64,000 bases of DNA from Nitrospira sp. (GTDB taxonomy: Bacteria > Nitrospirota > Thermodesulfovibrionia > UBA6902): NCBI GenBank assembly GCA_016784355.1, contig JADHUV010000007.1, positions 1 to 64,000 of the forward strand, written 5' to 3'. The position numbers were made by a program, and so were the translations under genes. How positions within the stretch are numbered: position 1 is the first letter of the stretch; the number at the start of each line of letters is the position of its first letter. Below are positions 43,556-62,865 of this stretch, piece after piece. The notes beneath the pieces are model-generated. The model worked only from the letters and a program-made list of their open reading frames with translations, ran no database searches and was not told where the DNA came from.

Positions 43556-44929
43556 TTATAGCACTAACTCAAATTCCTGTTCTTTTGCATCACGGTCAAG
43601 ACGATCCATCAGTACTCCGAGCATTTTTTCCAGCAGCCTGATCCCGCCCTTATATCCAACCGTTGGGAAATACTGATGTCCCTGACGGTCAAGGATTGGG
43701 AAACCCCACCGGACATATGGAATATCTTCATCACGGGCAATATATTTGCAGTAGGTATTGCCCATTATAAGATCTACTGGTTCATTCTGGATCCACTGAT
43801 GAAGCAGAAACATATCGCCGCCTGCCTTGACATTAACCTCATAGGGCATATCCTTTGTGATTTCCCTGATACGTTTTTCAAACTTCTTGCCCGATGTACC
43901 GGTTACAATGTGTATCGGCTGCATATCGAGGGTTACAAGAAACTCAGTCATGGCAATCAGCTGATCCGGGTCGCCTACAAGAGCAACTTTTTTCTGAAAA
44001 AGATACTGGTGCATATCGGAAATCATATCTACCAACTGACCGCGCTCACTGCTAATTTCATCAGGAATATTAACTCCCGCAATAATCCGCAGGGCATCAA
44101 TAAATCTGTCAGTTGCCTTCAACCCGAAGGGCATATCCAGCACACTGCAGGGCACCTTACAGCTTTTATCGAGCCAGCGGGCAGCATCAGCGGAGCACCA
44201 TTCTCCCAGAGCCAGAGTCCCTTTGGAATCACCGGCAGACCTAAGTTGCTCCATGGTAGTACCCCCATCAGGAAACATCTTGTACTCGCCGGACAGCGGT
44301 CCATTTAAGATGCCTGATGTATCGGGAAAGAGTATGCTCTCTACACCTATGAGCTTGACCATGCGTTTAATCTCTTCCATATCAGAGGGCTCTACCCAGC
44401 CGGGAATAATATTAAGTTTATGATTTTTTTTACCCGTGGGCTCGGCTACCTTTGCCATGGATGTGACCATATTGGAAAAACCCGTGACGTGAGAGCCTAC
44501 GTAGCTTGGGGTAGAGGCACTTATAACATATTTACCTTTAGGAATCTTACCTTCCGTATGGGCTTTTTTTGTTATTTGAGGCAAATCATCCCCGATTGTC
44601 TCTGAGAGGCATGTAGTATGAACTGCTATGACCTCCGGCTCGTAAACAGAGAAAATATTGGTAATGGACTGCATCATGTTTGCCTGGCCGCCAAATACAG
44701 AGGCGCCCTCGGTAAAGGCACTTGTGCTGGCAGAGACGGGCTCTTTGTAATGTCTTATCAGGGTGCTTCTGTGGTAAGAGCAGCACCCCTGTGAACCGTG
44801 ACTGTGCGGCAGACAACCATGTATGCCCAGAGATGCGTACATGGCACCTATAGGCTGGCATGTCTTGGCCGGGTTAATCATCAGGGCCTTGCGTTCAGTA
44901 ATTTTTTTCGGTGTATGACGTAATAACAT
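43556..44929 (-). CDS. nifK: nitrogenase molybdenum-iron protein beta chain
   Basis: A 457-residue subunit of the MoFe protein, of the short form without the N-terminal extension found in aerobes. P-cluster ligands: NPAKTCQPIGA, HGSQGCCSYHR and HTTCLSETIGDD. The conserved PSYVGSHVTGFSNM segment is present. Together with NifD it forms the alpha2-beta2 protein that reduces N2. It lies 110 bases after nifD, behind GGAGG. The P-cluster ligand set looks complete. Confidence 0.96.
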   Translation of the reverse strand: MLLRHTPKKITERKALMINPAKTCQPIGAMYASLGIHGCLPHSHGSQGCCSYHRSTLIRHYKEPVSASTSAFTEGASVFGGQANMMQSITNIFSVYEPEVIAVHTTCLSETIGDDLPQITKKAHTEGKIPKGKYVISASTPSYVGSHVTGFSNMVTSMAKVAEPTGKKNHKLNIIPGWVEPSDMEEIKRMVKLIGVESILFPDTSGILNGPLSGEYKMFPDGGTTMEQLRSAGDSKGTLALGEWCSADAARWLDKSCKVPCSVLDMPFGLKATDRFIDALRIIAGVNIPDEISSERGQLVDMISDMHQYLFQKKVALVGDPDQLIAMTEFLVTLDMQPIHIVTGTSGKKFEKRIREITKDMPYEVNVKAGGDMFLLHQWIQNEPVDLIMGNTYCKYIARDEDIPYVRWGFPILDRQGHQYFPTVGYKGGIRLLEKMLGVLMDRLDRDAKEQEFELVL

Positions 44930-45039
44930 TGTATCCTCCTTGTTCTATTTACTTTAAATGGATAGCGCGCCTTTTCCTGTGCTGCGGCCTCAGGTTAGGG
45001 CGATCGCCTGCAACAAAAAATCTTTACTGCCAGCAGTTA

Positions 45040-46680
45040 TTACTCCCAGCAATAGCTGGCAGTCAACTGCGGGTTTTCCTGCCATGGGGCCTTCATGTAA
45101 CTCCAGACCTTACTGTTTACAAGGCGATCGATTTCCTGATAGAAATTAATAGCACCCTGAAAACCCGCATAGGGTCCGCCGGAATCGTAACTGTGAAGCT
45201 GCTTCATGGGCACACCCAGTTTCTGCACTGAAAACTTTTCTTTAATACCTGCACAGAAGATATCAGGTTTCATCATTTCTACGAGTTTCTCGGCTTCGTA
45301 CTGATTTAAATCATCAATGATGAGAGTGCCTTCCGCCATTTCAGGAATGAGGCCGTCATACTCTTTAAACTTATACCCCGCATCTTCCAGGGCCTTCATC
45401 TCCTCAACAGACTTCCGTGGATTGTAACGAGTCTCATCTGCTTCGACTTCAATCTCTTCAATGTTGCGGCTGTCCGCATCCACTTTCAAAGTCGGCAGTA
45501 CATGGCGGCCTTCGTAATCATCACGGTGTGCAAATTCGTATCCGGCAGAAATAGTCTTCATTCCCATTTCTTTAAAGAGTTCCTGATAATGGTGAGCCCT
45601 GGAGCCGCCGACAAATATCATGGCGGTTTTACCTTCTGTTCTGCTGCGGACATCCTTTCTGACAGCCTCAACAGCCGGCATCTCCTCTGCAATGACCTTC
45701 TCCACTGTCTTTATCAGCTTCTTATCCCCGAAATACTCTGCAATCTTTCGCAGGGATTTAGCTGTTGCGTCTGCTCCGGTAAAGTTAACCTTTATCCACG
45801 GAATGCCGTATTTTGTCTCCAGCATATCGGCCACATAATTGATAGACCTATGACACATGACGGCATTCAGGTCAGCGGTATGTGCGGAGGCGAACTGGTC
45901 ATAAGTCGAGTTGCCGGAAAAGGTTGAGATGGCTGTAATTCCGCACTTTTCGAAAATCCGGTCAATTTCAAAACCATCACCGCCTATGTTGTATTCTCCC
46001 AGCAGATTGATTTTAAATTTACCGGGCTTTACAGCATCATTTTCACCGACTATGTGCTTAAACACCTGATTGTTTGCTATGTGATGTCCCGCGGACTGAG
46101 AGACCCCTTTATAGCCTTCGCAGCTGAAGGCATAGACATTACAATCGCCAAACTTTTCTTTCATGTTTCTGGTTACCGTGTGAATGTCATCACCAATAAG
46201 CCCTACCGGGCAGGTAGCGAAGACTGCTATGGACTTTGGATGAAAGAGATCATAGGCCTCCTGAATGGCCTCGGTGAGTTTTTTTTCACCGCCAAAAATT
46301 ATATCCTGATCCTGCATGTCCGTTGAAAAACAATAGGTCATGTAGTTCTCTCCGTCAGGTCCGGCATCGGTCTGGTTACGCCGGGTGAGCCAGGAATAAA
46401 AAGAACATCCGATAGGCCCGTGCGTTATGTTGACGATATCACGGGTTGGACCCATAATAACTCCCTTGCAGCCGGCGTAGGTACAGCCCCGCATTGAGAT
46501 TATTCCCGGGATGGTGCGTATATTCGCTGAAATCTCCGGTGTTTCATTTTCCAGAGCCTCATTTATTAATATCTGCTTGGCACGCTTGCGGGCTACCTTT
46601 GGCGGATATTTATTGAGGAGTTCAGCTTTCACATCAACGGGATCCCACTGAACGAGTTTTTTCTTTATATTAATTGCCAT
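45040..46680 (-). CDS. nifD: nitrogenase molybdenum-iron protein alpha chain
   Basis: A subunit of 546 residues. P-cluster cysteines are in GCTYAGCKGVIMGPTRDI, HGPIGCSFYSW and ATCPVGLIGDD. The FeMo-cofactor ligands are the cysteine in AVMCHRSINY and the histidine in LHSYDSGGPYAGF. It is longer than the aerobic form because of an insertion around residues 385-440, usual for anaerobe-type NifD. I start at the ATG 46680 behind AAGGAG; the frame runs open to 46752 into nifI2. Order nifI2-nifD is typical of switch-off-regulated anaerobic nitrogenases. Confidence 0.96.
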   Translation of the reverse strand: MAINIKKKLVQWDPVDVKAELLNKYPPKVARKRAKQILINEALENETPEISANIRTIPGIISMRGCTYAGCKGVIMGPTRDIVNITHGPIGCSFYSWLTRRNQTDAGPDGENYMTYCFSTDMQDQDIIFGGEKKLTEAIQEAYDLFHPKSIAVFATCPVGLIGDDIHTVTRNMKEKFGDCNVYAFSCEGYKGVSQSAGHHIANNQVFKHIVGENDAVKPGKFKINLLGEYNIGGDGFEIDRIFEKCGITAISTFSGNSTYDQFASAHTADLNAVMCHRSINYVADMLETKYGIPWIKVNFTGADATAKSLRKIAEYFGDKKLIKTVEKVIAEEMPAVEAVRKDVRSRTEGKTAMIFVGGSRAHHYQELFKEMGMKTISAGYEFAHRDDYEGRHVLPTLKVDADSRNIEEIEVEADETRYNPRKSVEEMKALEDAGYKFKEYDGLIPEMAEGTLIIDDLNQYEAEKLVEMMKPDIFCAGIKEKFSVQKLGVPMKQLHSYDSGGPYAGFQGAINFYQEIDRLVNSKVWSYMKAPWQENPQLTASYCWE

Positions 46681-46702
46681 TGTTATTCTCCTTGTTATCA
46701 GT

Positions 46703-47077
46703 TTAGGTGATTGCTTTTTTTCCACTCTCACCTGTTCGTAGACGGACAGCATCGCTCAGCGGCAAGACATATACCTTGCCGTCTCCGGCAAGTCCCGTCT
46801 GATTCGTATTGATAATTGTCTCAACCACACAATCGACCCGACTGTCTTCCACGACTACGGTTACAATACGTTTTGGATAGAGCTTGCCTTTCTCACCCAG
46901 CAGGGAAGCGGCTTCCTCATAACCCTGTTCAGCGCCTGCCAGAACCTCACGACTGGCAAAGCCTTTACCTCGGCCATGAGCTTCATGGGCAAAAAATGCA
47001 TCAATTCCACAATCGGTCAGGGCCTGCTTGGTCTGATTCATCATATTGATTCTCACAACGGCGATCACCTCTTTCAT
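46703..47077 (-). CDS. nifI2: P-II-like nitrogenase regulator NifI2
   Basis: A 124-residue P-II relative: KEVIAVVRINMMNQTKQALTDCGIDAFFAHEAHGRGKG, a T-loop region lacking the usual uridylylation tyrosine, and TGLAGDGKVYVLPLSDAVRLRTGE. With NifI1 it forms a complex that binds the MoFe protein and stops catalysis when fixed nitrogen is plentiful, known from Methanococcus. Its start overlaps the end of nifI1 by four bases. Confidence 0.94.
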   Translation of the reverse strand: MKEVIAVVRINMMNQTKQALTDCGIDAFFAHEAHGRGKGFASREVLAGAEQGYEEAASLLGEKGKLYPKRIVTVVVEDSRVDCVVETIINTNQTGLAGDGKVYVLPLSDAVRLRTGESGKKAIT

Positions 47078-47430
47078 GCCGTGACCTCCTCTGCCGCAGA
47101 GCCTTCTTTCACACCGGAACTGATTGTATAGGCTTCAAGTACTTCACTTATAAATATTTTTCCGTCACCAAAAGCGCCCTTTTCTCCGGACCGGCCGGTT
47201 TTCATGATAGTATCGATTACAAAGGTTTTATCTGCATCTTCGATCACGCTCATAAGCATCACTTTAGGCAGTTCGTCATAGGTTACTTCACCAATTTTGA
47301 TCCCGCGCTGCTTGCCGCGGCCTGCGACAGAGTATTTTGTTATAGACGGAAACCCTGCCTCCATAAGTGCCGCAAGGATTGCATCTGCTCTTTCTGGTCT
47401 TACTATCGCTCTTATCATTATCATTTGCAT
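47074..47430 (-). CDS. nifI1: P-II-like nitrogenase regulator NifI1
   Basis: A P-II relative of 116-118 residues: IRAIVRPERADAILAALMEAGFPSITKYSVAGRGKQRGIKIGE, then TGRSGEKGAFGDGKIFISEV. It is the ligand-sensing partner of NifI2 (2-oxoglutarate and ATP). The first ATG is only three bases after AAGGAG; the second, at 47424, has better spacing. It lies 140 bases after nifH. Confidence 0.94.
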   Translation of the reverse strand: MQMIMIRAIVRPERADAILAALMEAGFPSITKYSVAGRGKQRGIKIGEVTYDELPKVMLMSVIEDADKTFVIDTIMKTGRSGEKGAFGDGKIFISEVLEAYTISSGVKEGSAAEEVTA

Positions 47431-47572
47431 TTCTCCTTATTCTTTTTTAGAGTCGTTGTATAAGTAATTTCACGCCCTAAGCCCTTCACCTGGGCCCGTT
47501 CTCACTGGATGACTACTCTCCTTTAAAACAACTGCCGACTTTACAGCCAATAAATACGTTGTCAGGTATTGC

Positions 47573-48430
<858 letters not shown>

Positions 48431-48512
48431 TTACCAGTTTAAATTAATATCCAAGACTGCCTATTGCAGCTTTCATATAATGACTTTTTAACAGAGTTCT
48501 GCAACAACTTAT

Positions 48513-48528
48513 TGCAAGGCCCGTGCCA
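48513..48528 (-). promoter_or_regulatory. sigma-54 promoter of the nifH operon
   Basis: Read on the minus strand the site is TGGCACGGGCCTTGCA, an exact match to TGGCACRNNNNTTGCW. Transcription should start near 48502. Confidence 0.9.
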
Positions 48529-48725
48529 CTTTAGTTTTGAAAAATTAATATGTTTAATATCAGCAAGTTAAGTGATAAAATGAGCATTGACTCTTGCAAA
48601 TTCAGAAAAACTTGAAATGAAGAGAAGTTTACAAAAAGGTAGGGGCATAACCAATTATGTATAAATATATGTTGCCGACAATGCGCTTTGACTCTCTATT
48701 TATCTTTTTATTGAGAGGCTGCGTA

Positions 48726-48750
48726 TACACTATTGTCGAACAATAGTGTA
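48726..48750. promoter_or_regulatory. palindromic operator between nifH and nifA
   Basis: A perfect 11-bp inverted repeat around CGA; the inner arm is ACACTATTGT. Its build ACA-N4-TGT-CGA-ACA-N4-TGT and most of its bases equal those of the site at 31688. It lies about 225-250 bases upstream of the nifH start and about 195-220 upstream of the nifA start, so it could serve both. Confidence 0.65.
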
Positions 48751-48917
48751 AGTATGCATATAATAATGTCGTTAATATTAAAAGCTGCCTTACCCCTTTA
48801 AAAGAGAATGCAGGATAGATAAATATTTATACACAGCGCTGTCAGGCCCTTATATCATTAGGCTTACGTGAAGCTTCAGGCACCAATACGAATGCTCTGC
48901 AGGGCAAGTACTCACCC

Positions 48918-48933
48918 TGGCATACAACTTGCT
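48918..48933 (+). promoter_or_regulatory. sigma-54 promoter of nifA
   Basis: TGGCATACAACTTGCT matches the -24/-12 consensus with a perfect TTGCT and correct spacing. The start is predicted near 48944, two bases before the first ATG of nifA (48946), so the message would be leaderless. A sigma-54 promoter on nifA implies auto-activation or control by another enhancer-binding protein. Confidence 0.75.
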
Positions 48934-48945
48934 TCTTAATTGATT

Positions 48946-50592
48946 ATGATGAAAAAAACTAATCTCAATTGCGGTGAAAATAATACAGAAAAAAACAACC
49001 AGACCAGCTCTGTGAAAACTCCTGAGGTACAGGCACTATACCGTATAGCCCAGTTAGTGGGTTCCGCTGCGGAGCTTGAAGTAACCTTGTCGGAGATCCT
49101 GAAAATACTGCATGATACACTTTTTATGGAACGGGCTTCAATTGTGCTTCTGGATGAAGCAGGCGAGAATTTAACAATCAAAGCCTGTTACGGACTTACG
49201 AATGAGGAAAGAAAACGTGGGGTGTACAACCTTGATGAAGGTGTCATAGGTAAGGTATACAGTTCTAAATCGCCCTTTGTAGTTCCGGATATTAAAAGTG
49301 AACCACTTTTTTTAAATCGCACTCAGGCCCGTTCAATCAGTAAAGGCAATATTGCATTTATAGGTGTCCCCATTCTGCTAAGAAATAAACCGGTAGGTGT
49401 GTTCACTGTTGACCGTCTGTTTGCCTCTGAGGTCTCATACACGGAGGACGTACATTTTATTACGGTAGTTTCTACCCTTATTGCACAGTTTATCGAGCTT
49501 AATAAAGTCATCAAACAGAAGGAGGATGTATGGCTTGAAGAAAACAGAAACCTCAGGGCCCAGCTGGACAAGCGCTACAGTCGTCATAATATTATTGGGC
49601 AGTCCAAGGTAATGAGGGAAGTATTTCAACTGATCGACAGGGTTGCGCCAAGTACTGCAACGGCCCTGCTTCTGGGTGAATCAGGAACAGGCAAAGAACT
49701 GGTAGCGCAGGCTATTCATCACTCCGGGCCGAGGATCAAAGCACCCTTTATACAGCTTAATTGCGCGGCAGTACCGGAGACCTTGATAGAAAGCGAACTC
49801 CTGGGCCACGAAAAAGGCGCCTTCACCGGTGCAACATTCATGAAAAAAGGCCGCTTTGAATTAGCGAATGGCGGCACACTGTTTCTTGATGAGATTGGTG
49901 AGTTACCTTTAAATCTGCAGGCTAAATTGCTGCGCGTTTTACAGGAGAAGAACTTTGAGCGTCTCGGGGGGACAGAAACAATATCCGTAGATGTCAGAAT
50001 AATTGCAGCTACAAATATTAATCTTGAAGAAGCCGTCGCTCAGGGCCTCTTTAGGGCTGACCTTTATTACCGCCTAAATGTATTACCAATATTGCTGCCC
50101 CCATTACGCGACAGGGTAGAGGATATTCCACTGCTTCTGGATTTTTTCCTGCGGGAGAGCAATGAACGTAACGGAAAAATAATGCAGTTTTCACGGGATG
50201 CCGTTGAATTTTTAAAAGGTTACATCTGGCCCGGAAACGTACGTGAAATGCAGAATCTCGTTGAGAGAATGGTGATTATCACGGATCATGAAATCTGCAG
50301 GGTAAGTGATTTGCCCTCAGTTATGATTGCCGAACCGGAGAGGCCTGCAATTCAAGAACTTCCGCACCCGGTAAATATTTCCATAAAGGAAGACTCCCCT
50401 GAGACACCCGTTAATTCAAAGTCATCTTTGAAAGACAGGGAAAAAGAAATCGTAGAAGCAGCCATGCAGAGAAACGGCTGGGTGCAGGCACGCGCCGCGC
50501 GTGAACTCGGTATCACTCAGCGTCAGATCGGGTATAAAATCAAGAAGTACGGGATTATTATGCCGGAGCATATTTGCATAAAAAACGACTGA
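48946..50592 (+). CDS. nifA: nitrogen-fixation transcriptional activator NifA
   Basis: The activator has about 548 residues: GAF domain (about 35-175), AAA+ domain (about 208-440) with Walker A GESGTGKE, the sigma-54 contact GAFTGA, Walker B GGTLFLDEIGELP and the R-finger region, then a Fis-type HTH (GWVQARAARELGITQRQIGYKIKKYG). It drives sigma-54 promoters of nif genes. The CxxxxC linker of oxygen-sensing NifA proteins is not seen, and no nifL is nearby; NifI/P-II or the GAF ligand may provide control. No ribosome site lies before the ATG pair at 48946/48949, matching a leaderless message. Confidence 0.92.
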   Translation: MMKKTNLNCGENNTEKNNQTSSVKTPEVQALYRIAQLVGSAAELEVTLSEILKILHDTLFMERASIVLLDEAGENLTIKACYGLTNEERKRGVYNLDEGVIGKVYSSKSPFVVPDIKSEPLFLNRTQARSISKGNIAFIGVPILLRNKPVGVFTVDRLFASEVSYTEDVHFITVVSTLIAQFIELNKVIKQKEDVWLEENRNLRAQLDKRYSRHNIIGQSKVMREVFQLIDRVAPSTATALLLGESGTGKELVAQAIHHSGPRIKAPFIQLNCAAVPETLIESELLGHEKGAFTGATFMKKGRFELANGGTLFLDEIGELPLNLQAKLLRVLQEKNFERLGGTETISVDVRIIAATNINLEEAVAQGLFRADLYYRLNVLPILLPPLRDRVEDIPLLLDFFLRESNERNGKIMQFSRDAVEFLKGYIWPGNVREMQNLVERMVIITDHEICRVSDLPSVMIAEPERPAIQELPHPVNISIKEDSPETPVNSKSSLKDREKEIVEAAMQRNGWVQARAARELGITQRQIGYKIKKYGIIMPEHICIKND

Positions 50593-51020
50593 GGGTTTTT
50601 GCCAATTAAAGATTCCCTTATAGACTTCATCCAGGTCAATTGGAGGATATCTATTGTCGGCAAAGAAACTGAACAAATCCGCTCCCTGAAGATATATTAA
50701 TAAAAAGATTGCTTGAATAAAACTCATATGAATGCACGAGCACTCGGACAGTAACACATAAATACCCAATCGTTTCATCTTCTTCCCCAAAGCCTCCCCG
50801 CTTATGATTCAATCTTCTGCAGTGCTTATTCTGTTATAGTTGTCCCTCTGAAGACCTGTCATCATTTCTGTCTTGTCCTTGCTTTACGTTATGGCTATTA
50901 CTTTTGTCTTGCTGACTCCGCTGTCTATATTAGATGGAGAGTGTTCGATGTGTGTTGATGCGTTAAAAGTGCTGATGTCATTTCCTGAATTTATAACATA
51001 TGAAATGTTAGAGTTTAAAT
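50593..51020. other. intergenic region after nifA
   Basis: I see no gene here. ATTGTCGGCAA at 50653-50663 resembles half of the nif operator core. No intrinsic terminator with a clear stem and T-run is visible just after nifA, so transcripts may run on or end by Rho. Confidence 0.5.
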
Positions 51021-51329
51021 ATGATTACTAGAAAATGTCCTTATTGCAAGGATAAAAGCGTTACATATCGTCAATTGTTCATGCACATATTTTTTTCAAA
51101 GAGTTTTTTTTGTGAAAGCTGTGGACATGGAGTTATGCCTATGCCGGGAATGGTTCATGTTATTCTGGTTAATATCGTGGCAGTGGCAGCGCTCTGGGGC
51201 GGAATCATGGCTGCTTACATTTATGAGAGTTGGTTGATTTTTATTATTAGCATAAGTGTATCCCTATCTATTGCAAAATCACTTAAGTTTTTTGGTAGGT
51301 TGATCAGCATGCCGAAGAAGCAAATGTAA
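51021..51329 (+). CDS. small zinc-ribbon membrane protein
   Basis: The 102-residue product begins with two CxxC pairs (RKCPYCKDK and FFCESCGHG) that would form a zinc ribbon, followed by two membrane helices (about 43-65 and 70-90) and a basic end (MPKKQM). Similar small proteins are annotated only as hypothetical. It faces nifV tail to tail. Confidence 0.65.
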   Translation: MITRKCPYCKDKSVTYRQLFMHIFFSKSFFCESCGHGVMPMPGMVHVILVNIVAVAALWGGIMAAYIYESWLIFIISISVSLSIAKSLKFFGRLISMPKKQM

Positions 51330-51517
51330 ATATGGGTGGTGTCTATAATTGAAAAGTAGAGTAATAAACGGATATAAGGACAAGCAGCCTTCTTTATGGA
51401 ATAAGGTAAGTAAATGGCAATGGGAGCATCTGTGACTGGTGGTGTACGGGGTCAGATCTTTAATCGTAGCAGCCATAAGCAATCAACGACAAGAGTTCAT
51501 TTAAAAGCTAATATTTC

Positions 51518-52621
51518 TCATTGGCAGAGCTCAACAATCTCCTTATCGAACAGTGGTCTTCCAAGCCGTCCTGCCTTTTCCCTGAAAGCGGGAAAGAGCT
51601 CTTCCAGTTTTTCAGGAGACAGACGTATTTGTAAGTGATTGAGGCGGCCGGATAAACTGTTTCTCCCTATTTTCGCACCATACAAAAGACGCCTCACTGC
51701 TCCAACTTGCTTTGGATTGTAGGGTTCATATGTTGAGTGCTCCCTATTCAGTCCCTGCAGATGCATGCCCGTTTCACAGGTAAATATATTATCGCCTATA
51801 ATCGGGTGGTGCTGATCAATGGCTTTTGCTGCTGCCTCGCTTACCAGAGAACATAGAGGCCTTAGCTTTTCAGTACGGTACGTCCACCCTGCCTTAAGCG
51901 TAAAAAAACCTGCAAGCTCTTCCAGGCGCGCATTCCCCGCTCTTTCCCCTAAGCCCAGTACAGTGGCATCGGCCCACTGCGCCCCTGCCTGCAGTGCAGA
52001 TATGGCATTTGCTGTTGCCATCCCAAAATCATTATGAGTATGAACACCGATTTCCATGCCATAGGCATTAATTCCCTGCAAGGTATTAATCATTTCCATA
52101 GGGGTGGCAATGCCGACTGTATCGGCTATACGGATTCTCTGTGCGCCCTTTTCGGAGGCAATCTTAATTATTTCCTGCAAAAAACATGGATCTGCACGTG
52201 TTGCATCTTCAAGGCCGAGCGAGATTTTTTTAAAGCCGATATTACTTGCATACTTAAGTGAGTCAATAAGAGTCTGCCTTATCCATGGCCTGTTTTTACC
52301 GAGTTTCTTTTCAATATGCAGATCAGACACCGGGATGGAAAGAGAGATAATATCCGGGTTTAATTGTGCTGCATATTTTATATCTTCTAAATTGCAGCGT
52401 GACCATAATGAAAGTGATACCTCCGGGGTTATCTCCCTGCTTTCTTTCATTAGCCGGCAAAGCTCACCATCAAAGCGTGTTGCAATGCCAAGCTCAATCT
52501 CTTCGATTCCGACCAGAGCAAGTCCTCTGACTATTGCAAGCTTCTGCGCAAAAGAGAAATTAACTCCCACTGTCTGCGAGCCTTCTCTTAGCGTGGTATC
52601 AATAATGCCTTTCATATTCAT
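51518..52621 (-). CDS. nifV: homocitrate synthase
   Basis: A 367-residue member of the DRE-TIM metallolyase family: the start IIDTTLREGSQTVGVNFS with metal-binding aspartate, GLEDATRAD, and IGVHTHNDFGMATANAISALQAGAQWADATVLGLGERAGNARLEE with the metal-binding histidines. It condenses acetyl-CoA and 2-oxoglutarate to homocitrate, the organic part of FeMo-cofactor. Sequence alone does not exclude a related citramalate or isopropylmalate activity, but its place after nifE-N-B-X strongly supports NifV. It is the last gene of this operon. Confidence 0.92.
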   Translation of the reverse strand: MNMKGIIDTTLREGSQTVGVNFSFAQKLAIVRGLALVGIEEIELGIATRFDGELCRLMKESREITPEVSLSLWSRCNLEDIKYAAQLNPDIISLSIPVSDLHIEKKLGKNRPWIRQTLIDSLKYASNIGFKKISLGLEDATRADPCFLQEIIKIASEKGAQRIRIADTVGIATPMEMINTLQGINAYGMEIGVHTHNDFGMATANAISALQAGAQWADATVLGLGERAGNARLEELAGFFTLKAGWTYRTEKLRPLCSLVSEAAAKAIDQHHPIIGDNIFTCETGMHLQGLNREHSTYEPYNPKQVGAVRRLLYGAKIGRNSLSGRLNHLQIRLSPEKLEELFPAFREKAGRLGRPLFDKEIVELCQ

Positions 52622-52634
52622 AGATCATCCCTTC

Positions 52635-52946
52635 CTAGACCTTGATGTCTCTCACTGCTCCTGAATAAATTACCGGCTCTATCCCTAGCGCCTTGAGGGC
52701 CTGAGCAGGTTCATCGCCAATTTTTGTAATGAAAAGTTTTTCACATCCCTTTAACACCTTCCCGACCGCCATGAAACGCTTTTCATCAAAGGCATGACCT
52801 TTCTGGGCAGGTGCATAGGGCTCTACATCGATTTCATTTATCAGCTCGATGGATTCAGGCGCGGCGTTATACACAGAAAACTTCCTCGCCTTCCCAAAGT
52901 GCTCGTTTACAGTAATGCCGTCTGTCGTAGCAATCGCTATTTTCAT
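52635..52946 (-). CDS. NifX/NifB-type dinitrogenase cofactor-binding protein
   Basis: The 103-residue product is one NifX-like domain: IAIATTDGITVNEHFGKARKFSVYN with the conserved histidine, GHAFDEKRFMAVGKVLKGCEKLFITKIGDEPAQALKALGIEPVIYSGA. It should carry NifB-cofactor or FeMo-cofactor between NifB and NifEN. It differs clearly from the copy after nifK (43183). It lies between nifB and nifV. Confidence 0.88.
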   Translation of the reverse strand: MKIAIATTDGITVNEHFGKARKFSVYNAAPESIELINEIDVEPYAPAQKGHAFDEKRFMAVGKVLKGCEKLFITKIGDEPAQALKALGIEPVIYSGAVRDIKV

Positions 52947-52973
52947 ATTTGTCTCCTTACTATAAAACTATTT

Positions 52974-54260
52974 TCAAGAACATCCCCCGCCGCTCCCGGC
53001 ACATTCAGTCTTGCTGGTACAGGAGACCTCACGGGCTTTCATAGCCGTTAGACCCGCCGTATTGTTATTAAAGGCGGCCTCAAGACCCATCTCAATAAAG
53101 CCATTCATGACATAGGTCTGCACTCCGTACTTGGCGAGTACTTTTTGGGGAGTAGCACCTATACCGCTTACTAATATGGCGCTGCAGTCTACAAGTATCC
53201 TGGCAAGATGCAGCCAGCGTGTCGGGCCGCATCCCCGCTTTGGGGTCTCACGTTCTTCAATGAGTTTTAAAACGTTGTTATCGCGGGACCATATCTGCAC
53301 TGTTTCAGCTTCACCCAGGTGCTGATTAATCAGAATACCTTCCAGTGTAGCAACTGCGATGTACGGCCGTCCGCTGGTTTTTTTCGAGGGGACAGGCAAT
53401 TTTGCAGCATCGGAAAGACATGTCCGCATCTCATCCGTACGGTCCTGACCAAGGAGTCCTACCGCATCTGCCCGGCAGCGGGTACAATGACGCATCTGCG
53501 GAAGATACTTTTCAGCTTCTTTACGCAGGGCATCCATCTGCGTCTTATCCGGTTCAAGAATAGCTTCAAAAGGAGTATCTACGTTAGGCAATAAGGCCAT
53601 GCAGTTTAAGAGGTCAACTCCCAGGCTCTTCATTTTTTGGGCTACCTCAACAACATGATGATCATTTATGCCGGGCACCACAATGGTGTTAATCTTAACC
53701 GTAATTCCGGCAGCTTTCAACTTTACAATTGCATCGAGCTGACGGGCCAGTAGCAATTTAGCTGCCTGCAGACCCTTATGAATTACCTTCCCTTCACTGA
53801 CCCAGCCGTAGATCTTTTGACTGATTTCAGGGTTCACCGCATTAACGGTAATCGTTACATGAGAGACTCCTATTTGAGCAATCTCATCAATATGCTTAGC
53901 TATGGCAAAGCCATTACTGGAGAGACAAAGCAGGAGATCAGGAAAACGTTTCCGTATCAGTCGCATTGTCTGCAAGGTCTCCTCCGGATTAGCAAAGGGG
54001 TCTCCGGGTCCCGCAATACCAACAACAGTTATACGGGGCTCTTTTTCCAGTACCTTTTCAACGTAGCTCAGGGCCTGCGAAGGCGAGAGAATGCTGCTGG
54101 TTACGCCGGGACGGGACTCATTAACGCAATCAAATTTTCTATTACAGTAATTACATTTTATATTGCATTTCGGCGCGACCGGCAGGTGTATGCGGCCGAA
54201 CTGCCCTTTCACTTCACCATTAAAACAGGGATGCTTGCTCAAGTCTCTGGGCGTATTCAT
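52974..54260 (-). CDS. nifB: FeMo-cofactor biosynthesis radical SAM protein NifB
   Basis: A 428-residue protein with a radical SAM core holding the cluster motif CNIKCNYC followed by NRKFDC, GIAGPGDPFANPEETLQTM, and VKINTIVVPGINDHHV, and then a fused NifX-like domain (about 300-405, IAVATLEGILINQHLGEAETVQIW). It makes NifB-co, the 8Fe-9S-carbide core. Further cluster-binding cysteines are in MRHCTRCRADA. The end is cysteine/glycine-rich (CAGSGGGC). Confidence 0.96.
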   Translation of the reverse strand: MNTPRDLSKHPCFNGEVKGQFGRIHLPVAPKCNIKCNYCNRKFDCVNESRPGVTSSILSPSQALSYVEKVLEKEPRITVVGIAGPGDPFANPEETLQTMRLIRKRFPDLLLCLSSNGFAIAKHIDEIAQIGVSHVTITVNAVNPEISQKIYGWVSEGKVIHKGLQAAKLLLARQLDAIVKLKAAGITVKINTIVVPGINDHHVVEVAQKMKSLGVDLLNCMALLPNVDTPFEAILEPDKTQMDALRKEAEKYLPQMRHCTRCRADAVGLLGQDRTDEMRTCLSDAAKLPVPSKKTSGRPYIAVATLEGILINQHLGEAETVQIWSRDNNVLKLIEERETPKRGCGPTRWLHLARILVDCSAILVSGIGATPQKVLAKYGVQTYVMNGFIEMGLEAAFNNNTAGLTAMKAREVSCTSKTECAGSGGGCS

Positions 54261-54326
54261 ATGTTCTCCTATACCAGCAATAAGGCTAATTTATTATGCG
54301 ACTCCAGCAGAGCTGTGATGCGGCTC

Positions 54327-55688
54327 TTACATATAGCTGTAGCCGGTTTCTGATTCGCGTTGTTTCTTCTCAAGCAGGGTATTGGCAATAGTATCAAACA
54401 ACTGCTGAGCACCCTGATATCCGATATGCAGTATGCGCTGACCGCCTATGCGGTCATGAACAGGAAAGCCGACCCTGACAATCGGGATATTATTTTTTCT
54501 TGCCACCTGATAGCCTTTGCTGTGACCGATAAGTATATCCGGCTTCAGCTCTGCTGCCAGTTTTTCAATTTCATAAAAGTCCATACCTTCCGCGATCTCC
54601 GGAGTCTCCGAAACAAGGCCCTTGCATACTTCTTTTATGGCTGCTTCCAGTTTTCCGGATTTCCCACCTGAAGCACACAGGACAGGCTGGACACCTATTT
54701 CAGCGAGGAAAGAGGTTAAGCCGATAACCAGATCTTCCTCACCGTAGACAATGGCCCGTTTACCGAAAACATATTTATGACCATCTGCGAGAGAGTCTAT
54801 AAGTCGGCCTCGCTGATTTTCATAGACTGCGGGTGTACTCTGGCCGGTAATATGGTTAAGTGTCTTAAAAAATTTATCTGTCTCTCTCAGGCCAATGGGC
54901 ATACCCAGGCGATGATGCTCAAGGCCAAAATTTTCTTTCAGCAGCAGTCCGGCCGAATCACTCTCAGCAATAGTCCAGCCAAGCTCAATTACAGCTGCCG
55001 AACTTCCAAGCTTTTCAATACTCTGAATCGTGGTGCCGCCACGGGGAATTTTTTCATATTCCAAAAGTGCGGGACCATCCAGGGTCTCAGATATATCCGG
55101 CAGGATTGTAAACGGGACCTTGTAACGGCCGCTGATATCTTTTAAGCTGCGGATATCCTCCGGGGACAGGAGACCGGGAAGAATTGCAAGCTCGTTTGTC
55201 CGTTCTTCAGTTTCTTTTGTAAGCGCTTTTACCAACTCCCTGATCGCGGCATGAAAACCTTCCATGTGCGTACCACTGTAAGAAGGTGTTGAAACTGAGA
55301 CTAAAAGAGGTATCCCGGACTCTCCCTGCGTCATTGCTCTGTACTCATTTAAAAGCTGGGGCAGATCATCCCCGATTGTTTCCGTCAGACAGGTACTGGC
55401 TATTCCGATAAGCTGCGGGTGAAATTTCTCGGTTACATTTTTGATCCCCTGTTTTAAGTTAGGGCCGCCTCCGAAAATTGCATGCTTCTCACCGAGTGAG
55501 GACGATGCAATATCCATAGGCTCATTGAAATGACTGATAATGTAACGGCGCATATAGGTTGCACAGCCCTGCGAACCGTGAAGAAAAGGCACTGTGCCTT
55601 CTATGCCGCGGAAGGCAAGTGTGGCCCCCAGTGGTTTGCAAAGTTTACAGGCATTGGTCGTTGATACAAAGTTGGGCATTTTACTCAT
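54327..55688 (-). CDS. nifN: FeMo-cofactor scaffold protein NifN
   Basis: A 453-residue paralogue of NifK that pairs with NifE to form the scaffold on which FeMo-cofactor matures. It shows FVSTTNACKLCKPLGATLAFRGIEGTVPFLHGSQGCATYMRRYIISHFNEP and STCLTETIGDDLPQ. It overlaps the end of nifE by eight bases. Confidence 0.93.
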   Translation of the reverse strand: MSKMPNFVSTTNACKLCKPLGATLAFRGIEGTVPFLHGSQGCATYMRRYIISHFNEPMDIASSSLGEKHAIFGGGPNLKQGIKNVTEKFHPQLIGIASTCLTETIGDDLPQLLNEYRAMTQGESGIPLLVSVSTPSYSGTHMEGFHAAIRELVKALTKETEERTNELAILPGLLSPEDIRSLKDISGRYKVPFTILPDISETLDGPALLEYEKIPRGGTTIQSIEKLGSSAAVIELGWTIAESDSAGLLLKENFGLEHHRLGMPIGLRETDKFFKTLNHITGQSTPAVYENQRGRLIDSLADGHKYVFGKRAIVYGEEDLVIGLTSFLAEIGVQPVLCASGGKSGKLEAAIKEVCKGLVSETPEIAEGMDFYEIEKLAAELKPDILIGHSKGYQVARKNNIPIVRVGFPVHDRIGGQRILHIGYQGAQQLFDTIANTLLEKKQRESETGYSYM

Positions 55689-57039
55689 CTTTAGTTACCT
55701 CCACGCGCGGCATAAATCTCCATACCGGACTCATAACCGAGCCGTAGACTTCCCTGGCAAAGTTCAGCATGCCGATGAATCCGGCCAGAACCTCTTTGCG
55801 TTCATGATTGTGGTCGCAGAAGGCGACGCCGAGTTTATAGGCTATAGGTCTTTCCTTGACACCGCCTACAAAGATATCTACATTTTTCTCCTGAAGAAAA
55901 GAGGAAAGCTCCATAGGGTTGGAGTCATCAACTATGATCGTTCCAGGGTCAGTAATTTCCTGCAGTTCCTTATATTCAGAGGCAGTGCCGGTCTGTGATC
56001 CAACCATTACCACATCCATCCCGAGGATCCTGAAGGCCTTAACTAAAGAGAAGGCCTTGAAAGCACCGCCTACATATATCGCGGCCTTCTTGCCTGTGAG
56101 GGCCTTCCGGTATTCCTGAATCTGAGGGTACACTTTCTCAAGCTCATCCTTTACAACCAGCCTGGCCTTACGTCTCATCTCATCATCATTGAAATGTTCT
56201 GCCACGGCATAAATAGACTCTGCCATATCTTCAATCCCAAAATAGGAAACCCGTATGACAGGCGTGCCGTATTCCTTTTTCATCATATCGGCCAGCGTCA
56301 TGGTTGCGCCTGAGCACTGAACTACATTAAGCGCTGCCCCGTGCGCCCTTTTGATATCCTCAACCCGGCCGTCCCCGGTAATATTGGCAACTACATTAAC
56401 TCCGATTCGCTCGTACATCTCGCGAATCATCCATATCTCTCCCGCAAGATTAAAGTCACCAAGGATATTAATACTCTTTTCTGGAATTCCTGATATGTCG
56501 CCCGTCCCGACTAAACGGAACATTGCATTACAGGCTGCTCGATATCCTTCACGCTTATTACCTTTAAAGCCTTCTGACTTAACGGGAAGAACCGGGATAT
56601 TTTTCTCTTCGGAGACCTTCTTGCATACTGCCTCCAGGTCATCTCCAATAAGGCCGACAATACAGGTGGAATAGACAAAGGCCGCCTTCGGCTGATGTCG
56701 TTCAATAAGTTCGTCCAGGGCTGCCGCAAGCTTTTTTTCTCCCCCGAAAATTACATCTATTTCCTGCAGATCCGTGGAAAAGCTCAGACGATGCAGTTCC
56801 GGACCGGAGGACAGGGCCCCGCGAATATCCCATGTGTATACAGCACAACCGATAGGCCCGTGAACTAGATGAAGGGCATCGGCTATCGGGTAGAGCACAA
56901 CTCGCGAGCCGCAGAATACACAGGCCCGCTGACTGACCGCGCCGGCCGTACTTTCTTTGTCGCAGGAAATCGCAAGATCTGAACCCTCTACTTTACGAAT
57001 TATCTGGCTCTGTCTGTCTTTCAGGGCATCTTTATGCAT
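55681..57039 (-). CDS. nifE: FeMo-cofactor scaffold protein NifE
   Basis: A NifD paralogue of about 452 residues: CVFCGSRVVLYPIADALHLVHGPIGCAVYTWDIRG, FSTDLQEIDVIFGGEKKL, YSTCIVGLIGDDLE, and AALNVVQCSGATMTLADMMKKEYGTP with the cofactor cysteine. I start at the ATG 57039 behind AAGGAAG; an earlier ATG at 57069 adds only a basic stretch. It is the first gene of the E-N-B-X-V operon. Confidence 0.94.
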   Translation of the reverse strand: MHKDALKDRQSQIIRKVEGSDLAISCDKESTAGAVSQRACVFCGSRVVLYPIADALHLVHGPIGCAVYTWDIRGALSSGPELHRLSFSTDLQEIDVIFGGEKKLAAALDELIERHQPKAAFVYSTCIVGLIGDDLEAVCKKVSEEKNIPVLPVKSEGFKGNKREGYRAACNAMFRLVGTGDISGIPEKSINILGDFNLAGEIWMIREMYERIGVNVVANITGDGRVEDIKRAHGAALNVVQCSGATMTLADMMKKEYGTPVIRVSYFGIEDMAESIYAVAEHFNDDEMRRKARLVVKDELEKVYPQIQEYRKALTGKKAAIYVGGAFKAFSLVKAFRILGMDVVMVGSQTGTASEYKELQEITDPGTIIVDDSNPMELSSFLQEKNVDIFVGGVKERPIAYKLGVAFCDHNHERKEVLAGFIGMLNFAREVYGSVMSPVWRFMPRVEVTKDE

Positions 57040-57093
57040 GGTGTCTTCCTTTAGTTTTTTCTTATGCAATCAGGTCATTTATAGTTTGTACTT

Positions 57094-61712: not shown

Positions 61713-61752
61713 GATGACGAATTTTTTCCCTTCGTAATTCGTATATCGTCAA

Positions 61753-61803
61753 TCGGGATTCGTCAATTTTTTTTTAGGCATAAAGAAAAGTGACGAATCC
61801 CGA
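61753..61803. terminator. inverted repeat between the transporter and the rhodanese gene
   Basis: TCGGGATTCGTCA (61753-61765) and TGACGAATCCCGA (61791-61803) form a perfect 13-bp stem around an A/T-rich loop with a run of nine T. It sits where two converging genes end and probably blocks read-through. Confidence 0.6.
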
Positions 61804-61818
61804 GTGACAAATGACGAA

Positions 61819-62136
61819 CTAAAGAACCGGAAACCCTGCACTCTTCCATGCCTCAACTCCGCCAAGTAGAGCTTTTGTATTTGCAAAACCCTGAGTTTTA
61901 TATTCCCCGGCCCGACCGGCCGCGCTGCCTTCTGATGGTCAGGCTCAATAAAATATAATTTCCTGCTCCTTTGCAAGTGAGGGTGTTTTTTGAATGAACT
62001 GTTCAAGGGATAAAGCACCCTCAAGCCTCATCTTATCGAAACGGGCTTCGCTGTCATAGGCACAGACTAGCAGCGCAGCGTGTTCTGTCATATTCCATTT
62101 TGCTTCTTCGGGGGTGATTCGCGGGATAAGATTCAT
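61819..62136 (-). CDS. rhodanese-like selenoprotein with UxU active site (two in-frame UGA)
   Basis: One frame runs from ATG 62136 to TAG 61819, broken only by TGA at 61945-61947 (codon 64) and 61939-61941 (codon 66). Read through, it is a 105-residue rhodanese-like protein: ITPEEAKWNM, LLVCAYDSEARF, KMRLEGALSLEQF, EIIFY-U-A-U-PSEGSAA, then AGEYKTQGFANTKALLGGVEAWKSAGFPVL. Relatives have Cys-x-Cys (IIFYCAC) where the two TGA codons lie, and the family is rich in such active-site cysteines. Both halves are intact and in frame, which argues against decay. A SECIS-like hairpin follows. Role: sulfur or selenium transfer or redox. Confidence 0.8.
61905..61947 (-). promoter_or_regulatory. candidate bacterial SECIS element
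   Basis: On the message, CGGCC-GGUCG-GGCCG (positions 61922-61908) forms a five-base-pair apical stem with a GGUCG loop. It begins 22 bases after the first UGA and 16 after the second. Bacterial SECIS hairpins place a GGU-containing loop roughly 16-37 bases downstream of the selenocysteine UGA, so one hairpin could serve both codons. Confidence 0.6.
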
Positions 62137-62319
62137 CTGGACTCCTTTAATATAGATAAAGTTTCCTTATTGAATATGTGTTTACGTTTGCATATTTTCT
62201 CAGAAGCAAGGCGTTCTGTCAATCCGGAGTGTGTGCTAATCTGACATTGGTCATATTGCATTCCCTCACTGCTCCATTATAATGAAACTAGAGGAGGCGG
62301 TGATGGTACCGTTATTGAT

Positions 62320-62865
62320 ATGAGAAAAGTTTCAGCCATAATTTTATTAGCTACGATTTTGGTTATAAGCCCAGGTTTAAGTCAAGGTGAAAGCCCTGAA
62401 AAGGTATTAAATAATCAGCATTCAATTGAAAAACCGGCAAAGGAGGAACTTATGAAACAGTTAACCCCTATTCAGTACAAGGTAACACAGGAGAATGGCA
62501 CGGAGCCGGCTTATAATAATGAATACTGGGATAATAAGCGGGAAGGCATATACGTTGATATCGTATCAGGAGAACCGCTTTTCATATCTACAGATAAATA
62601 TAAGTCCGGAACAGGCTGGCCTAGTTTCACAAGGCCGTTAGAGCCTGAAAATATAGTAGAAAAGGAAGATAATAGTTTCTTTTCACGCCGTACAGAGGTA
62701 AGAAGCCGGAAAGGCGACTCGCATCTGGGTCATGTATTTTCTGACGGCCCCGCGCCTACCGGTCTTCGCTACTGCATGAATTCGGCAGCTATGCGGTTTA
62801 TACCAAAAGAAGAAATGGAAAAAGAGGGTTATGGGCAGTACCTGAAAAGATTTTCCGAAAAATAA
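62320..62865 (+). CDS. msrB: peptide-methionine (R)-S-oxide reductase, exported
   Basis: A 181-residue protein with an N-terminal signal (residues 1-23, ending QGES) and an MsrB domain: [63 protein letters not shown] and the catalytic cysteine in [12 protein letters not shown]. The zinc-binding CxxC pairs of many MsrB proteins are missing. The signal suggests repair of oxidised methionine in envelope proteins. A conserved [10 protein letters not shown] Met start at 62452 would give a cytoplasmic form. Confidence 0.92.

Follow-up and report, generated by a model that had tools for sequence, protein, structure and literature searches.

Five rhodanese forms (UxxS, UxxG twice, CxU and UxxxxU) are found among the 119 families of the 2026 inventory of prokaryotic selenoproteins (PMC13188914). 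The nearest of these is the 'rhodanese-like form 3' (NF041203, rhodanese_LYCAU; PMC13188914 Table 1), a CxU protein with a single selenocysteine (Sec) which shares with the protein described here the fold, the second Sec, a CxCPxE-type loop and the register of the SECIS. The two differ in that the LYC-x-U motif of NF041203 is FYUAU in our protein, where the second Sec is aligned and the first Sec replaces the Cys, and in that NF041203 has an N-terminal extension and a DVR motif whereas our protein has neither, with LLVCAY in place of DVR and a score of 52.6 bits against a cut-off of 115. Some UxU homologues (L141, L155 and L161) do pass the NF041203 cut-off and some such proteins may therefore already be annotated under that name. 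TsoB (NF045694), a rhodanese/DsbD fusion, is likewise rhodanese-related with two Sec, but these are spaced as UxxxxU within a DsbD-like fusion of 572 positions, against which our protein reaches 11.1 bits (cut-off 805). The UxxU diselenide selenoproteins (Shchedrina 2007, cited in PMC2398784) also hold two nearby Sec able to form a Se-Se bond, but belong to another protein family and separate their Secs by two residues instead of one. The all-Cys counterparts of our protein are the CxC rhodaneses of Nitrospirota (e.g. L207 and L209; YCTCPNE...), which are without Sec and for the most part belong to other families within the phylum. The 119 entries of the inventory include no UxU rhodanese and a full-text search of open-access papers for UxU together with rhodanese found none. 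We conclude that the protein is a real double-Sec variant, so far overlooked, within a kind of selenoprotein that is already known.

The reading frame and its hairpin

The gene lies on the minus strand of a 64,000-nucleotide stretch of a Nitrospira sp. contig, hereafter the window, with the following features.

61819..62136, minus strand: coding sequence of the UxU rhodanese selenoprotein, 105 aa, from translation, alignment and PF00581; stop codon TAG at 61819-61821
61945..61947, minus strand: first Sec codon UGA, residue 64; follows the 'FY' strand, aligns with the catalytic Cys canonical in rhodaneses and is Cys in CxU and CxC relatives
61939..61941, minus strand: second Sec codon UGA, residue 66; every CxU and UxU relative has Sec here
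61908..61922, minus strand: bSECIS hairpin CGGCC-GGUCG-GGCCG, 5-bp stem CGGCC/GGCCG and loop GGUCG, from folding and from register and covariation in 47 genes
62062..62064, minus strand: codon of Cys25 in LLVCAY, the motif that replaces DVR in the window clade, from alignment
62142..62148, minus strand: Shine-Dalgarno AAAGGAG, 5 nt upstream of the ATG, read directly
62194..62222, minus strand: candidate promoter-like site TTGACA-17-GAAAAT with TG preceding the second hexamer, from a consensus scan only
61735..61821, no strand assigned: inverted repeat with imperfect 40-nt arms that are 80% complementary, with T/A runs

Read from 62136 to 61819 with TGA as Sec, the frame gives the 105 residues MNLIPRITPEEAKWNMTEHAALLVCAYDSEARFDKMRLEGALSLEQFIQKTPSLAKEQEIIFYUAUPSEGSAAGRAGEYKTQGFANTKALLGGVEAWKSAGFPVL, with no other stop or frameshift besides the two UGAs. 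The preliminary description of this DNA had placed two in-frame TGAs exactly at both cysteines of the CxC motif, within a frame intact before and after them, and had proposed an alignment with Cys-containing homologues. That alignment matches codon 64 to Cys in CxU and CxC relatives and codon 66 to Cys in CxC relatives, and the frame reads on to the TAG. Also borne out is its statement that ordinary annotation would yield a truncated product and a spurious frame, as under table 11 only a 63-aa frame (61945-62136) and an overlapping spurious 91-aa frame (61749-62024) are recovered. Other frames of the window use TGA as a stop in the usual way (9 of 41 long frames), so the recoding of UGA at this gene is local. 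The inverted repeat overlaps the stop codon of the gene, between it and a convergent AI-2E-exporter-like gene, and is probably a two-way terminator. Elsewhere in the window are an msrB-like gene with a signal-like N-terminus (62320-62865), divergent from the UxU gene, and what by eye is a nitrogenase-like cluster (NifK, NifD, NifH, NifV, NifB, NifN and NifE; 43556-57069).

The product matches the PF00581 profile with 29.4 bits (cut-off 22.2) and its AlphaFold model (pLDDT 93) has a rhodanese fold, with rhodaneses in the top rows of the PDB structure matches listed. No solved CxC structure is found among the PDB matches for which alignments were listed. In the alignment U64 sits at the start of the rhodanese active-site loop, the position of the catalytic Cys or Sec, and the DVR (CH2A-like) motif, which is common in rhodaneses if not strictly defining, is absent from the window clade, with VCAY instead. 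Escherichia coli GlpE (PDB 1gmx; TM 0.80) is like our protein a single-domain rhodanese fold, but is a thiosulfate sulfurtransferase with one active-site Cys and a shorter loop. We take the catalytic Cys of GlpE to correspond in position to U64.

The published bSECIS model calls for a loop of 3-9 nt, a stem of 4-16 bp, a G in the first two loop bases, a distance of 16-37 nt from the UGA and an MFE of at most -7.5 (PMC13188914). The window hairpin, with its 5-nt loop starting 21 nt past the second UGA and 27 nt past the first, its 5 bp and its energy of -9.1 kcal/mol when folded alone, satisfies these constraints for both UGAs, in agreement with the earlier proposal that it lies at the right distance to serve as SECIS. 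The hairpin was compared in 47 distinct UxU genes, the window gene included. Of these, 45 share one register in which all five inner pairs can form, against 4.7±2.0 in synonymous-codon shuffles, of which the largest value in 1000 was 12, and amino acids alone are thus insufficient to explain the hairpin. Covariation reaches 0.507, with 70 compensatory cells, compared with 0.212 in shuffled genes (none of 500 shuffles attains the observed value) and with 0.07-0.16, at most 0.164, in a control with the partners slid. The same register is found in 33 of 40 CxU relatives in Nitrospirota. Five bases can pair in the SECIS register in 10 of 19 CxC genes as well, mostly close kin, which indicates that part of the hairpin signal is set by the amino acids, a component addressed by the synonymous-shuffle control. 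In single-sequence folds, the 56 nt around the window hairpin prefer other pairing that takes in the region of the second UGA and, with the 5' flank, are not unusually stable (z -0.94).

Taken from sequence, the gene very probably encodes a double-Sec protein (U64-A-U66) decoded by SelB and tRNA-Sec, and we infer that Sec is inserted at both sites in vivo. Both UGAs would be decoded by the ordinary bacterial SelB/tRNA-Sec system guided by one SECIS hairpin, and the gene is a small natural system in which to ask if two UGAs that almost adjoin can be decoded with one SECIS and SelB.

Distribution and evolution of the UxU form

We searched 85k genomes (257 Gb) with a degenerate pattern of 47 bases derived from [IV]F[FY]-UGA-x-UGA-[PH]-x-E, for which by our own estimate about one match is expected by chance. 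It matched 47 loci, all 47 of them rhodanese frames through both UGAs, and occurs once in the window (0.00 expected). These loci span at least nine phyla and by record titles include Nitrospirota, Nitrospinota, Methylomirabilota, Chloroflexota, Acidobacteria, Deltaproteobacteria lineages, Poribacteria, Planctomycetota and Synergistales. The preliminary description had regarded a double-Sec rhodanese as a rarity, a view that this spread does not sustain: the form is not a one-off, and it adds a two-Sec active site to the selenoprotein repertoire in genes that annotation truncates. Across 38 sequences (the window protein and 37 UxU homologues) the invariant columns are F62, U64, U66, E69, A76, G83, G92 and G93, the last four of which lie further downstream of both UGAs. 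In two UxU rhodaneses of Synergistales (L177:593-910 and L181:3812-4129) an extra Cys near the C-terminus (DLVCE and DLICK) stands directly before an in-frame TGA.

Relatives show CxC, CxU and UxU sites, with CxU intermediates common. The pattern scan found CxU in 18 of 396 Nitrospirota genomes and UxC in none of the 396, and this absence suggests that the second position acquires Sec first. A tree for which both site residues were masked gives the window clade a support of 99; its 28 rows (21 UxU and 7 CxU) are distinguished by LLVCAY where DVR would stand. Over the whole tree at least four changes into and out of UxU are required by well supported branches, so that C and U swap repeatedly at the first site. 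The evolutionary route would then lead from CxC and CxU to UxU, with the second site, it seems, gaining Sec before the first. The natural CxC, CxU and UxU versions among these relatives allow the gain from a second selenium in a rhodanese to be compared.

Candidate functions of the two selenocysteines

The predicted product is a cytoplasmic single-domain rhodanese-fold selenoprotein with two Sec, and we put at about even the chance that its two selenols pair in a catalytic role on sulfane sulfur or selenium. At the rhodanese site one selenol would accept sulfane sulfur or zero-valent selenium and the other would attack, freeing HS- or HSe- and leaving a Se-Se bond, and a thioredoxin-type reductant would reopen that bond, the net result being a two-Sec sulfane-chalcogen transferase/reductase. 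Cys25 is a possible third chalcogen if, as we suppose, it lies near the active site. More broadly and more tentatively, double-Sec rhodaneses may make up an unlisted class of wide occurrence, in which one SECIS suffices to decode both UGAs, one codon apart, and the encoded Se-Se bond across one residue would form a reductive sulfane-S/Se(0) centre.

The genomic context of these genes is a redox one in several cases. Two loci, one from a Syntrophobacteria MAG and one from an unclassified bacterium (L155:1196-2845 and L142:6543-7913), join a UxU domain to a multihaem c-type cytochrome, and UxU domains of the window clade are fused to a YHS (seleno)protein domain, NF041384 (L150:3520-4209 and L182:1810-2628), which in L150 is over the NCBIfam cut-off and just below Pfam's YHS cut-off. 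Such fusions, which we count in favour of the paired-selenol reading as well, together with the divergent msrB-like gene beside the window gene and an invariant acidic Glu69, with no Arg, in the active-site loop, fit a protein that is no carrier at all and uses the fold as a scaffold, its UxU site alternating between the diselenol and the diselenide state in the reduction of peroxides, disulfides or metals. Glu69 in place of Arg also argues against anionic substrates such as thiosulfate or arsenate. We consider this dithiol/diselenol redox role rather unlikely, as the first Sec falls exactly at the sulfur-carrying Cys of rhodaneses, the fold is intact, and the loci examined show no recurring peroxidase or reductase partner next to it. 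In a clustering of the neighbourhoods no neighbour family recurs beyond four loci once the rhodanese itself is set aside, and no neighbouring gene in the loci examined names a substrate.

A role in selenium delivery, whereby the protein would bring selenium as perselenide to SelD and so feed its own synthesis pathway, appears improbable. Rhodanese perselenide is cited as a possible delivery form (Ogasawara 2001) in PMC5877670, SelD is encoded in the genome and a CxU relative lies ~6 kb from selA-selB in one related genome (G021), but selD or selA recurs as a neighbour in none of the loci examined and relatives with selB are often without the gene.

Selenocysteine machinery in the genome

SelB is over the cut-off in 42 of 46 UxU genomes compared with 2 of 14 control genomes, and among 47 genomes of the window's order selB is found in 40, selA in 42, selD in 40 and tRNA-Sec over the cut-off in 34. 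The window's own MAG comprises 88 contigs and is 91.8% complete. The preliminary description had named selA, selB, selC and selD as the genes to look for and had held that a lack of selB/selC would refute a selenoprotein. Of the four, selD is present and itself has a Sec UGA, placed at the canonical AAGU site, while selA, selB and tRNA-Sec (selC) were not found in the assembly. Eight RF01852 matches coincide with genes for tRNA-Ser, Leu, Tyr, Trp and Gly and were rejected, as were the selB candidates, whose scores and frame lengths fit IF2, TypA, LepA and EF-G.

The lack of selB and selC is thus literally true of the assembly, but we judge a gap in a 92%-complete MAG to be the better reading. 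The opposite view, that Sec decoding has been lost and the gene is either decaying or now stops after 63 aa at its first UGA, draws on these same three absences and seems to us very improbable. The MAG retains of tuf only two 22-residue tuf-like stubs, evidently broken, and the gene adjoining selB in two relatives (G019 and G021) is missing from it too, the latter being weak evidence as the search was without a positive control. In relatives selA and selB adjoin, sometimes with selC (3.6 kb in G043), so that a single gap would remove all three. Further, three intact UGA genes (selD and two UxU genes) with hairpins persist in the MAG, the UxU frame having no additional stop or frameshift. Given the Sec UGA of selD, the second UxU gene and the frequency of selB both in the order and among UxU genomes, an assembly gap is the most likely though unproven explanation. 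In the sel loci of four other genomes (G016, G019, G014 and G018; loci L285, L286, L287 and L288) no tRNA-Sec was found despite the presence of selA/selB; two of these genomes, G016 and G019, are single contigs, and the tRNA-Sec may lie elsewhere in all four.

Sequencing errors at the TGAs, or a genome-wide reading of TGA as another amino acid, are ruled out for practical purposes by the recurrence of both TGAs across dozens of independent genomes, by their alignment with Cys in relatives, by the covarying hairpin and by the use of TGA as a stop in the long frames of the window.

The second UxU rhodanese of the MAG (G000:C1:24292-24597; L039, L188:3410-3778) has the same hairpin and starts with a signal-like N-terminal segment. 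In an annotation this protein would end at FVFY.
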